Source: Paracoccaceae bacterium
Lineage (GTDB): Bacteria > Pseudomonadota > Alphaproteobacteria > Rhodobacterales > Rhodobacteraceae
Assembly (NCBI GenBank): GCA_016938875.1
Contig: JAFGTV010000008.1
Span: 248,001-312,000, forward strand
Direction of reading: 5' to 3'
Length of the DNA: 64,000 nt
The position numbers and the translations under genes are program-made. This document shows, one piece after another, positions 59,299 to 61,221 of this stretch (position 1 is its first letter; each line of letters starts with the position of its first letter). The notes under the pieces are model-generated. The model was not told where the DNA came from, ran no database searches, and was given only the letters and a program-made list of their open reading frames with translations.

Positions 59299-60381
59299 TC
59301 AGGCCATCCCGCCCGCGATCAGCCGCGCGGCAATCGCACCATAGGCCTGCGCCACCGGCCCGTCGCCCAGCGCGATGGGCGTGCCACCATCACCAGCCTG
59401 CCGCACCTCCAGCGCCAGGGGCAGTTCCCCCAGGAACGGCACGCCGATCTTCGCGGCCTCGGCGGCGACCCCGCCATGGCCAAAGATATGCGCCTCGTGC
59501 CCGCAATTGGGACAGATATAGGTCGACATGTTCTCGATCAGGCCCAGCACCGGAGTTTTCAGCTTGTCGAACATGTCGATCGCCTTGCGCGCGTCCAGCA
59601 GCGCCACGTCCTGCGGGGTGGAGACGACCACCGCCCCGGTCAGCTTGCTGCGCTGGCACAGCGTCAGCTGGATATCGCCCGTGCCCGGCGGCAGGTCGAC
59701 GATCAGCACGTCCAGCTCACCCCAGGTCACCTGCCCCAGCAACTGTTGCAGCGCCCCCATCAGCATCGGCCCCCGCCAAACCACCGCCTGCCCCTCCTCC
59801 ATCATCAGCCCGATGGACATCATGGTGACGCCATGGGCGGTGACCGGCTCGATGATCTTGCCATCGGGCGAGGCGGCGCGCCGGGAGACCCCCATCATGC
59901 GCGGCTGCGAGGGGCCATAGATATCGGCGTCCAGCAGGCCCACCCGGCGCCCCTGACGGGCCAGCGCCACCGCCAGGTTGCTGGCCACGGTCGATTTTCC
60001 AACCCCGCCTTTGCCCGAGGCAATCGCCAGAATGCGGTCGATCCCGGCGGGGTTCTGCGGACCGGTGTCGGCCGTGGGATGGCGCCCGATCTTGAGGCTT
60101 GGCGCGGCCCCCGGCGCGGTCTTGGGGGCGGCCGGACCATGGGCCGTCAGCACGACCGAGGCGCGCGTGACCCCCTCCAGCGCCTCGACGGCGGCCTGGG
60201 CGGCGGCGCGCACGGGTTCCATCCCGGCGGCCTGGGCGGCATCGGCGGCCTCGATCACAAAGCGCACGGCGTCCCCCTCGACCGTCAGCGCGCGCACCAG
60301 GTCGCGTGACACCAGGTCGCCCCCGTCCGGCAGGGCGATTCGGGACAGGGCGGCCAGAACGGTGTCGCGGGTGACGGGCAT
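59299..60381 (-). CDS. mrp: Mrp/NBP35-type Fe-S carrier ATPase
   Basis: P-loop Fe-S cluster carrier (Mrp/ApbC). The 360 aa protein has an N-terminal MIP18/DUF59-like domain (about residues 1-85), the deviant Walker A ASGKGGVGKSTVASNLA (about 120-136), DADIYGPSQPRMMGV (about 148), VDLPPGTGDIQLTLCQ and a C-terminal CPNC motif (YICPNCGHEAHIF, about 300) that binds the cluster between two subunits. Confidence 0.94.
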   Translation of the reverse strand: MPVTRDTVLAALSRIALPDGGDLVSRDLVRALTVEGDAVRFVIEAADAAQAAGMEPVRAAAQAAVEALEGVTRASVVLTAHGPAAPKTAPGAAPSLKIGRHPTADTGPQNPAGIDRILAIASGKGGVGKSTVASNLAVALARQGRRVGLLDADIYGPSQPRMMGVSRRAASPDGKIIEPVTAHGVTMMSIGLMMEEGQAVVWRGPMLMGALQQLLGQVTWGELDVLIVDLPPGTGDIQLTLCQRSKLTGAVVVSTPQDVALLDARKAIDMFDKLKTPVLGLIENMSTYICPNCGHEAHIFGHGGVAAEAAKIGVPFLGELPLALEVRQAGDGGTPIALGDGPVAQAYGAIAARLIAGGMA

Positions 60382-60637
60382 GGGGGGCTCCTATGGGGGC
60401 GTTTCGCTATGCCCTTTACTTGGTCAACCACGCGCCAAGGGGCAAGGGCGTTTCCACTTTGCCCGATCGAGTGGCATCAAGGGTGAGATCGCCCGAATAT
60501 ACGTCAGCAGAACTTATGCAATTTCTGCATAGCGGCATTTCCCCCCCAAACTATTGTGCATCTGCAGCATCGCGGTATTTATGGTTCAACGGCACGAAAC
60601 GGACCGTGCCCGACGATGCGACCAAAGGCTGATAACG
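60382..60637 (+). promoter_or_regulatory. upstream region of the DUF1127/sRNA locus
   Basis: A perfect inverted repeat TATGCA-ATTTC-TGCATA lies at 60515-60531. It overlaps the first copy of a 16-base imperfect direct repeat: CTGCATAGCGGCATTT (60525-60540) and CAGCATCGCGGTATTT (60565-60580), 13 of 16 identical and exactly 40 bases apart. A related CTGCATCGCGG occurs after the locus at 61161. In Rhodobacter sphaeroides the equivalent locus is driven by heat-shock sigma factors RpoHI/RpoHII. I cannot fix a -35/-10 pair with confidence here. Confidence 0.45.
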
Positions 60638-60868
60638 ATGGCCCACCTTACCCACGCAGGACACGCCCCGGTCATCTGGACCGGCCGCGCCCGCGAAATG
60701 GTCGAGGTGCTGCGCCACCGCATCGCCCGCCGCCGCGTCTATCGGCAAAGCCTGCGCGAGTTGCGGGCGCTGCCGAACCGGGCACTGGCCGATCTGGGCC
60801 TGAACAGATCAACCCTGCGCCGCGCCGCCCTGGAGGCAGCTTACGGCCGGGACGCGGACCAAGTTTAG
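60638..60868 (+). CDS. ccaF1: DUF1127 small protein, CcaF1-like
   Basis: A 76 aa basic protein with the DUF1127 core in its C-terminal half: YRQSLRELRALPNRALADLGLNRSTLRRAA (about residues 38-67; the motif L-x-x-L-x-x-R-x-L-x-D-L-G-L-x-R). The rest is rich in Arg and His. ATG at 60638 follows AAAGG at the right distance; longer frames in the gap are unsupported. Its TAG stop (60866-60868) is inside the first CCTCCTCCC hairpin. DUF1127 proteins such as CcaF1 of R. sphaeroides bind RNA and affect sRNA maturation and turnover. The symbol is assigned by family and synteny with the CcsR hairpins. Confidence 0.85.
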   Translation: MAHLTHAGHAPVIWTGRAREMVEVLRHRIARRRVYRQSLRELRALPNRALADLGLNRSTLRRAALEAAYGRDADQV

Positions 60869-60896
60869 GAAACCCCTCCTCCTCCCTGGGTTTCCT
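60867..60896 (+). ncRNA. ccsR1: CcsR-type sRNA hairpin 1
   Basis: AGGAAACCC (60867-60875) pairs perfectly with GGGTTTCCT (60888-60896) around the loop CTCCTCCTCCCT, which contains CCTCCTCCC. It begins within the DUF1127 stop codon. The four tandem hairpins here match the CcsR RNAs (conserved CCUCCUCCC motif stress-induced RNA) of R. sphaeroides, cut from one transcript by RNase E. Confidence 0.85.
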
Positions 60897-60902
60897 CATC
60901 TC

Positions 60903-60936
60903 GCGGCGACATCCACCTCCTCCCGGGTGTCGCCGC
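60903..60936 (+). ncRNA. ccsR2: CcsR-type sRNA hairpin 2
   Basis: GCGGCGACATCC (60903-60914) pairs with GGGTGTCGCCGC (60925-60936), 12 pairs with one U-G wobble, and loop ACCTCCTCCC. The exposed loop would resemble an anti-Shine-Dalgarno sequence. ACTTTTCTTCC follows, a possible RNase E cleavage spacer. Confidence 0.85.
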
Positions 60937-60943
60937 ACTTTTC

Positions 60944-60969
60944 TTCCGGGGCCGATGGCCCCACCGGAA
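60944..60969 (+). other. extra hairpin between CcsR-type hairpins 2 and 3
   Basis: TTCCGG (60944-60949) pairs with CCGGAA (60964-60969), with inner GGCC/GGCC pairing around GAT, or alternatively GGGGCC with GGCCCC (60948-60962). It lacks the CCTCCTCCC loop, so it is likely a spacer structure or processing site rather than a fifth CcsR. Confidence 0.5.
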
Positions 60970-60970
60970 T

Positions 60971-61003
60971 GCGGCTGAGTCTCCTCCTCCCTGGCTCCTC
61001 CGC
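60971..61003 (+). ncRNA. ccsR3: CcsR-type sRNA hairpin 3 (weaker stem)
   Basis: The loop region TCTCCTCCTCCCTGG holds the CCTCCTCCC motif. The stem is weaker than in the others: GCGG pairs with CCGC and GAG with CTC, separated by a 2x2 internal mismatch. It may fold less stably, or need its neighbours. Confidence 0.7.
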
Positions 61004-61010
61004 TGACAAG

Positions 61011-61052
61011 AACGGCGGCGCCTCCTCCTCCCTGGCGTCGCCGTTTTTTTTG
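61011..61052 (+). ncRNA. ccsR4: CcsR-type sRNA hairpin 4 and terminator
   Basis: AACGGCGGCGCC (61011-61022) pairs with GGCGTCGCCGTT (61034-61045), 12 pairs with one G-U wobble, and loop TCCTCCTCCCT. A run of eight T (61044-61051) follows directly, so this hairpin also serves as the intrinsic terminator of the whole DUF1127-CcsR transcript. Confidence 0.87.
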
Positions 61053-61221
61053 TCCTGGGATCGGGATGGGGTCGGACACGGCTGGGGCAGGACCGTATCG
61101 TAAATCTTGCTTGTCGCCGCGATGCGACGACTGTCGGCAGTGAGCCCGACTTGCGTTTTTCTGCATCGCGGCCCAAATTCCGCTATCGGTAGCTGGCTGG
61201 CCATGTGGAAGGGGCACCAAA

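Follow-up and report, generated by a model that had tools for sequence, protein, structure and literature searches.

A ccaF1-ccsR-type stress locus of a Paracoccaceae bacterium and predicted LsrB/VtlR-type sites in its promoter

The window analysed here is a 64,000-nucleotide (nt) stretch of the Paracoccaceae bacterium assembly GCA_016938875.1, the source genome (contig JAFGTV010000008.1, positions 248,001 to 312,000, forward strand). Near its end it carries a gene for a small DUF1127 protein followed by an array of RNA hairpins, which together probably form a ccaF1-ccsR-type stress operon under the control of an RpoH-type sigma factor and LsrB/VtlR. LsrB, a regulator of the LysR type, acts in the oxidative-stress response and has been studied in root-nodule bacteria and related species. 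As a locus this is one more ordinary representative of a known family, and the LsrB-like sites in its promoter are, as far as our searches reached, the new part. In Rhodobacter sphaeroides, ccaF1 and the small RNAs ccsR1-4 are encoded on one transcript, for which the legend of Fig. 1 in PMC10253847 shows only an RpoHI/RpoHII promoter (papers are cited throughout for the passages available from them).

A conserved promoter block with LysR-type sites

Two sets of related loci were compared with the window. The first contained 40 array loci from 39 genomes, taken from the better-scoring part of the list of matches to the Rfam model CcsR1 (RF02791), with the same-genus genome (G363) included. The second contained 80 DUF1127 loci, the most similar of 496 relatives found with a DUF1127 protein profile; a scan with the window protein alone found no relative, whereas the profile of its kin did. 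When the 200 nt before the start codon were aligned for 31 loci (30 relatives and the window), a single conserved block appeared, located at 60516-60582 in the window. Nearly all columns conserved at 90% or above fall in ATTGTGCA..GCAGCA, with which the window agrees in 15 of 16. The core of the block, TGCATGGCAGCATTG, is identical at 14 of 15 positions to the reverse complement of the published VtlR-binding motif CAATGCAGCCATGCA; in Brucella, VtlR positively regulates DUF1127 genes together with the RNA AbcR2 (PMC12595884).

This box is matched at 12 or more of its 15 positions by 77 of the 80 second-set loci and at 11 or more by all of them, against 2 of 675 background windows at the former level, and every one of the 80 has a TTGTGC 27-28 nt downstream of the box start. 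For the first set plus the window, a box of 12/15 or better lies between -520 and -200 of the first hairpin in 32 of 41 cases (background 2/387). A wider search over 600 nt, which was chosen after the same-genus locus L044 had been seen and whose background was counted afterwards, raised this figure to 38 of 41, against 1 of 167 background windows of 600 nt.

The block also contains two copies of the form TGCA-N6-GCAT (Table 1), which occurs four times on the + strand in the 64 kb. With a transcription start placed at about 60588-60590 from the -10 region, the first copy would lie at about -72 to -59. In Sinorhizobium meliloti the small RNA NfeR1 (ar14) is activated by LsrB through TGCA-N6-GCAT at -72 to -60, as established by pull-down, gel shift and reporter mutants (PMC10746234). 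In register with the box, TGCA-N6-GCAT is found in 45 and TGC-N7-GCAT in 77 of the 80 second-set loci, whereas 3 and 20 of the 675 background windows, respectively, hold these motifs anywhere. Motifs of the T-N11-A form, in tandem in most sequences, are described in PMC8844928, with GCAT-N3-TG-N3-T at -61 to -49 of the abcR1 promoter; this same GCAT-N3-TG-N3-T is the reduced consensus given for Brucella abortus and Agrobacterium tumefaciens (PMC7486931). Judged by its letters, the window promoter is better described by TGCA-N6-GCAT than by the reduced VtlR consensus, and at the T of the latter the relatives mostly have A or G.

Table 1. Coordinates of the features at the locus and its upstream neighbour, in window positions.
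Feature	Position	Strand	Basis or remark
Divergent neighbour, Mrp/NUBPL-type iron-sulfur P-loop NTPase	59299..60381	-	Pfam PF10609 331 bits, PF01883 56 bits
TGCA-N6-GCAT (TGCAATTTCTGCAT), upstream LysR-type site	60517..60530	+	same motif as the S. meliloti PnfeR1 LsrB site (PMC10746234)
VtlR/LsrB-type box TGCATAGCGGCATTT	60526..60540	+	12/15 to reverse complement of CAATGCAGCCATGCA (PMC12595884)
Candidate -35, TTGTGC	60554..60559	+	28 nt after box start; putative assignment
Second TGCA-N6-GCAT (TGCATCTGCAGCAT)	60557..60570	+	40 base pairs (bp) from the first; overlaps candidate -35
Candidate -10, GGTATTTAT	60574..60582	+	putative; commonest listed in relatives is CCCCATGTT
ccaF1-like gene, 76-residue DUF1127 protein	60638..60868	+	reading frame, Pfam match, alignment with relatives
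Hairpin 1, CcsR-like unit 1 (stem overlaps stop codon)	60867..60896	+	folding, Rfam
Hairpin 2, CcsR-like unit 1; aligned with the strongly covarying stem	60903..60936	+	folding, Rfam, covariation
Spacer stem without CCUCCUCCC between the two units	60944..60969	+	folding; alone z -2.1, 8/200 shuffles as low
Hairpin 1, CcsR-like unit 2	60971..61003	+	folding, Rfam
Hairpin 2, CcsR-like unit 2, and eight T; intrinsic terminator	61010..61051	+	folding, Rfam, T run

The DUF1127 gene and the hairpin array

An earlier note, made from the sequence alone, had described a 76-residue DUF1127 gene whose stop codon overlaps the first of four hairpins, each with one motif in its loop and the last followed by eight T, and this description was borne out in full. 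The open reading frame (ORF; ATG to TAG) matches Pfam PF06568 at 37.9 bits, against a cut-off of 23.3, and its stop codon, TAG at 60866-60868, runs into the first stem. The 64 kb contain exactly four copies of the motif CCTCCTCCC, all of them on the + strand and within 155 nt (60878, 60916, 60983 and 61024), against a mean of 0.68 copies in shuffled sequence, where four were reached anywhere in 1 of 100 shuffles. Folding leaves the motif unpaired in the loop of each of the four hairpins, the last of which ends at 61046, and the 196-nt stretch 60860-61055 folds at -93.7 kcal/mol, compared with -60.6 for shuffled sequence (z -7.9; 0 of 200 shuffles as low). At the 3' end, a 13-bp stem and the eight T (61044-61051) constitute a Rho-independent terminator. 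Three features lie beyond the earlier note: the fifth stem, which lacks the motif, the promoter block, and a C-terminal extension of the protein. Spacer stems like the fifth one are visible by eye in some relatives (L044, L082).

The overlap between stop codon and first stem is peculiar to the window copy because of that extension, five residues (DADQV) past EAAYGR, which is absent from the 30 aligned relatives; most of these proteins end at or near EAAYGR, and L059 and L063 have other short tails. The distance from the stop codon to the first CCTCCTCC is 9 nt in the window, compared with 18-31 nt in 28 of 31 relatives and 65-157 nt in the other three.

The search of Rfam with the array, proposed in the earlier note as a check, found CcsR1 twice, at 60863-60941 (51.5 bits, E 1.4e-11) and at 60967-61049 (41.6 bits, E 1.1e-8). 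The proposed likeness to ccaF1-ccsR1-4 stands as regards these matches and the layout, which is that of PMC10253847, but not as regards the family threshold: neither match reaches the gathering score of 65.3 bits, a point that weighs against the assignment and because of which a standard Rfam scan at that score lists nothing in the window. The locus is thus to be named by its type, CIN1/cuckoo (ccaF1-ccsR), as another copy of a known stress module, and not as a member of RF02791. The features of that type present here are the DUF1127 protein, the tandem CCUCCUCCC-loop hairpins directly downstream on the same strand, and the terminator at the 3' end. What did not survive is the equation of the four hairpins with ccsR1-4, cut into four pieces of 50-70 nt. 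The CcsR1 model, 83 positions long, holds two hairpins, and Cereibacter johrii, presumably close enough to stand in for R. sphaeroides, has eight such loops by script, the number expected for four two-hairpin RNAs. On this comparison the window most likely carries two two-hairpin CcsR-like units of about 80 nt, not four.

Matches to RF02791 at E 0.001 or better were found in 324 of 394 genomes of the source family, 17 of which reach the gathering score, and in 1 of 14 control genomes (Thermus composti). In the source genome the two window matches are the sole good ones; a third, at 22.9 bits, falls at a locus without CTCCTCC. The first-set loci have 2-14 hairpins each by a script that undercounts (in L044 it counted two where four are seen by eye). 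A DUF1127 ORF, recognised by pattern, lies just upstream of the array in 31 of these 40 loci, and in the fetched stretches of the remaining nine a tblastn search with the proteins of the aligned relatives and the window found no DUF1127 protein. Conversely, 74 of the 80 second-set DUF1127 loci have two or more CCUCCUCCC-type hairpins.

For covariation, 61 units were extracted from the 80 loci by means of two CCTCCTCC motifs and reduced to 51, from which 31 were picked by hand and joined by both window units, giving 33 sequences. In hairpin 2, 10 of 11 pairs have changed on both sides and 99.4% of 360 cells are paired, a value as high being reached in 0 of 500 shuffles, and sliding the pairing partner destroys the covariation signal. 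Nine loop letters are invariant across the units, a constancy that is partly built in because units were chosen by that motif (eight of the nine letters were the extraction criterion). The same alignment of 33 sequences has no consensus helix for hairpin 1, where the covariation test was uninformative.

Weaker Rfam matches (MIR9677, ar7, Scr3202, sX13, anti-hemB and suhB) and those on the opposite strand (ylbH and P10) were discounted, being attributable to chance or to a weak resemblance among C/T-rich hairpins. A search of the source genome for targets of the form GGGAGGAGG-N3-9-ATG gave two matches, and none in the reversed control. One is the antisense of the locus itself. The other (C49:54295-54310; L215 at about 1500, - strand) is a nine-base complement of the loops before an ORF resembling short-chain dehydrogenases by eye, and is a candidate target.

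An LsrB-like protein and the RNA beside its gene

In this class vtlR/lsrB is placed directly downstream of trxB (PMC7486931). Among 30 fetched loci belonging to other families of this class, 13 have a LysR gene in that position; in 16 genomes of the source family, the source included, none lies beside trxB within the fetched stretch, which in the source genome stops close to the gene at one end. Two LysR patterns tried before proved too stringent, with no matches. A profile built from 12 of the 13 trxB-linked LysR proteins then picked out a single protein of 358-385 bits in each of 40 family genomes (40/40), the next best anywhere scoring 182 bits or less. The source protein (G000:C45:45184-46059; L204:1658-2560, - strand) scores 365 bits against this profile and 241 bits against PDB entry 9HH1, deposited as A. 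tumefaciens LsrB (PMC11975290), with the next at 97. Its first 62 residues, which include the DNA-binding helix, are 73-89% identical to the 13 trxB-linked proteins. LsrB is stated in PMC11975290 to be unique to Rhizobiales; these profile and structure-entry scores, being sequence likenesses, speak against that statement.

In A. tumefaciens, AbcR RNAs are encoded downstream of vtlR (PMC7486931). The source genome has a comparable arrangement: a match to SorY (RF02651; 59.8 bits, gathering score 111) and SorX (41.9 bits, gathering score 46.6) at L204:1496-1571 (- strand, G000:C45) immediately follows the lsrB-like gene and precedes an ORF resembling purL by eye, mirroring the vtlR-abcR order. 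Downstream matches to SorY or SorX occur in every locus scanned, 19 of the 40: the source locus, the same-genus one and all 17 further family loci, 16 of which have the match within about 350 nt and one, L137, at 1.2 kb. All the SorY matches in these 19 loci are below the gathering score, and some SorX matches reach theirs. Outside the family, 6 of 13 loci have a SorX, SorY or suhB match downstream, always below gathering (in L122 suhB only, E 0.007). The region after lsrB contains box-like sites of at least 11/15 in 24 of 40 loci, against 7 of 163 in the background, and of at least 12/15 in 7 of 40, against 0 of 163. CTTG-N20-24-TAnNT follows lsrB in 27 of 40 loci, a count made without a background.

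Loci in which gene and array are apart

Seven loci combine a box and an array with no DUF1127 gene found between them. In the same-genus genome G363, the array L044 stands behind mrp with a box of 13/15 and TTGTGC, and no DUF1127 gene was found between these promoter elements and the hairpins; a DUF1127 gene, L251, sits on a different contig with its own box of 13/15 and TTGTGC and no hairpins. Genome G094 has a boxed DUF1127 gene (L245) and a boxed array (L246), while its arrays L051 and L052 are without one. In G226 the box stands before the gene L248 and the arrays L058 and L249 but is lacking at the array L250. In both genomes, as in G363, a box of 12/15 or better goes with the gene and with an array. 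G112 has a boxed array without a gene (L047) besides a boxed gene followed by two motif copies (L247). The box thus mostly stays with the DUF1127-type gene and with the array even when the two are apart, and shared control is therefore favoured over hitch-hiking. Such genomes would allow a test of the need for the protein in cis for RNA maturation.

Comparison with known systems

With ccaF1-ccsR1-4 of R. sphaeroides the window locus has in common the DUF1127 gene, the two-hairpin units with CCUCCUCCC loops downstream of it and the terminal terminator. The R. sphaeroides locus has four units and a protein of 71 residues, whereas the window has two units, 76 residues, a C-terminal extension and a stop codon inside hairpin 1. 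The box and TTGTGC are present in the ccaF1-ccsR-type loci of C. johrii and Cereibacter azotoformans as they are in the window; the -10 region of the window departs from CCCCATGTT. NfeR1/ar14 (SmelA075) of S. meliloti has the same CCUCCUCCC loop, as well as an LsrB site of the motif TGCA-N6-GCAT, and the Rfam model ar14 matches the window locus at 44.4 bits, below its threshold of 58.8. NfeR1 differs in having three hairpins, a sigma-70 promoter and repression by NtrC, in contrast to the upstream DUF1127 gene and RpoH-like promoter of the window. In Brucella, a single LysR regulator, VtlR, controls both DUF1127 genes and a small RNA, with a box similar to that of the window (PMC12595884). There and in Agrobacterium, however, the genes and the AbcR RNAs are listed as separate VtlR/LsrB targets, whereas the window has gene and RNAs in one stretch; moreover, the RNA after the lsrB-like gene is a SorY/SorX match here and AbcR in Agrobacterium, and GCAT-N3-TG-N3-T is not found at the window.

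Within the open-licence literature searched, and in the passages available from it, no paper linking LsrB or VtlR to CcsR or SorY was found; papers beyond it may link them. In those passages, PMC11975290 covers LsrB, Rhodobacter and DUF1127 with no CcsR or SorY, PMC12501420 names CcaF1 and has LsrB in a reference only, PMC11089165 has LysR, DUF1127, SorY and SorX in its reference list only, and PMC6139387, on Salmonella, mentions SorY and LsrB.

Proposed mechanism and alternatives

A stress promoter near 60588 would give a single transcript that ends with the terminator at 61051. It would code for the small DUF1127 protein and contain, towards its 3' end, two two-hairpin RNAs with four CCUCCUCCC anti-Shine-Dalgarno loops. 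For its transcription an RpoH-type sigma factor and the LysR regulator LsrB/VtlR, occupying two sites (60517-60540 and 60557-60570), are predicted to be necessary. RNase E would cleave the transcript with the DUF1127 protein taking part, and the resulting RNAs would pair with ribosome-binding sites and lower the translation of metabolic mRNAs. Processing, targets and RpoHI/RpoHII control are here carried over from papers on R. sphaeroides, in which CcsR maturation involves RNase E and CcaF1, the RNAs are bound by Hfq and degraded by PNPase, and flhR mRNA is a target of the CcsR RNAs, which also influence glutathione and pyruvate dehydrogenase; LsrB control is likewise carried over, from rhizobial relatives. 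The gene, the structures, their conservation, the operator-like sites and the LsrB-like protein are observed in the present analysis, and from the two together we infer function in the source organism and LsrB binding at the window promoter. LsrB is thus predicted as an added activator on a mechanism carried over by homology. Photo-oxidative stress is a plausible setting since the source genome has photosynthetic reaction-centre genes (PF00124, two matches).

Several findings weigh against LsrB/VtlR control. The window box, at 12/15, is at the weak end. GCAT-N3-TG-N3-T is absent from 60401-60640 of the window and lies at the box in only 4 of the 80 relatives and 3 of the 41 arrays, a failure that slightly lowers the odds for LsrB. 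Five of 40 genomes, the source genome and G363 among them, are without a match to the pattern YGCATRGCNGCAWTG, and a looser one, GCATRGCNGCATT, has three matches in the source genome against one in the reversed control; two of the three (C37, C58) lie within or at coding ORFs and were set aside. The 13 genomes examined from other families gave 10 box-pattern matches with no DUF1127 gene, as recognised by pattern, within 700 nt. Four arrays lack a good box (L051 and L052, both in G094, L062, and L250 in G226), and TTGTGC is missing in L057, L058, L248 and L249 (in the last two on the box strand) and is not at its usual distance in L080. The relatives are not independent: the loci are mostly orthologs, the sets share genomes and box-bearing loci supplied the query profile. 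The box figures are therefore counts of conservation and not of independent events. Furthermore, the stretch after the source lsrB-like gene gives a box match of only 10/15, and none of the four cysteines of A. tumefaciens LsrB is present in the source LsrB-like protein, whose single cysteine is at residue 190. The signal of this protein may therefore differ, and disulfide redox sensing as described for A. tumefaciens LsrB is, from the residues present, unlikely in it.

Some of these points would suit an ordinary ccaF1-ccsR operon under RpoH control alone, with the block an extended core promoter or the site of another factor and its likeness to the VtlR/LsrB box incidental. The commonest -10 listed in the relatives, CCCCATGTT, is sigma-32-like, and the modest 12/15 of the window box and the rarity of the reduced consensus (4/80) agree with it, as does the lone RpoHI/RpoHII promoter of PMC10253847. 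We nevertheless hold this reading unlikely: it leaves a block present at 12/15 or better in 77 of 80 relatives and in 2 of 675 background windows, with the T-N11-A form typical of LysR sites occurring twice, 40 bp apart, and located where LsrB binds the promoter of an S. meliloti CCUCCUCCC RNA (PMC10746234). As T-N11-A is generic for the LysR family, another member, OxyR or a GcvA-like protein, might bind the block instead; the missing cysteines and a further LysR protein at 174 bits in the source genome are in keeping with this. Such a substitution seems quite improbable, given that over its 15 bp the block resembles specifically the VtlR/LsrB box and that similar sites recur downstream of the lsrB-like gene, before the small RNA match (24/40 against 7/163 at 11/15 or better).

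The hairpins themselves could be mere 3'-end structure that terminates and protects the DUF1127 mRNA and does not act on other mRNAs, as their beginning at the stop codon and their ending in an intrinsic terminator might suggest. To this we give very little credence: the stems covary with a constant loop motif (a constancy partly due to unit selection), arrays persist behind the promoter at the seven loci where no DUF1127 gene was found, and both CcsR (PMC8307010) and NfeR1 (PMC10746234) act on target mRNAs.

Control by LsrB/VtlR and an RpoH-type sigma factor may also extend beyond this locus, and we lean slightly towards a wider picture in which, across the source family, the two switch on both ccaF1-ccsR and the SorY/SorX-like RNA. 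On that view the singlet-oxygen small RNAs of Rhodobacter and the rhizobial NfeR1 and AbcR would all belong, as separate branches, to a single ancient LsrB regulon of anti-Shine-Dalgarno RNAs, and a role of LsrB in regulating photo-oxidative stress in purple bacteria would so far have gone unnoticed. If true, the promoter reading identifies the activator so far missing for CcsR and perhaps also for the RNA beside lsrB; it joins two separately studied stress circuits, whose literatures we found unjoined in the open-licence papers searched, and it too speaks against LsrB being unique to Rhizobiales, as stated in PMC11975290.

Neighbouring and additional features

By eye, the Mrp-type gene is also upstream in the same-genus L044 and in L049, L064, L066 and L076. 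An ARAGORN match to tRNA-Pyl (anticodon cta) at 640-728 of the window was set aside as most likely false, since it falls inside a coding sequence that by eye resembles DnaB, the replicative helicase. The source genome has two further DUF1127 genes, neither at a locus containing CTCCTCC. A second, short DUF1127 gene (L003:1412-1630, + strand, on C34) is divergent to an ORF that resembles a LysR-type regulator by eye.

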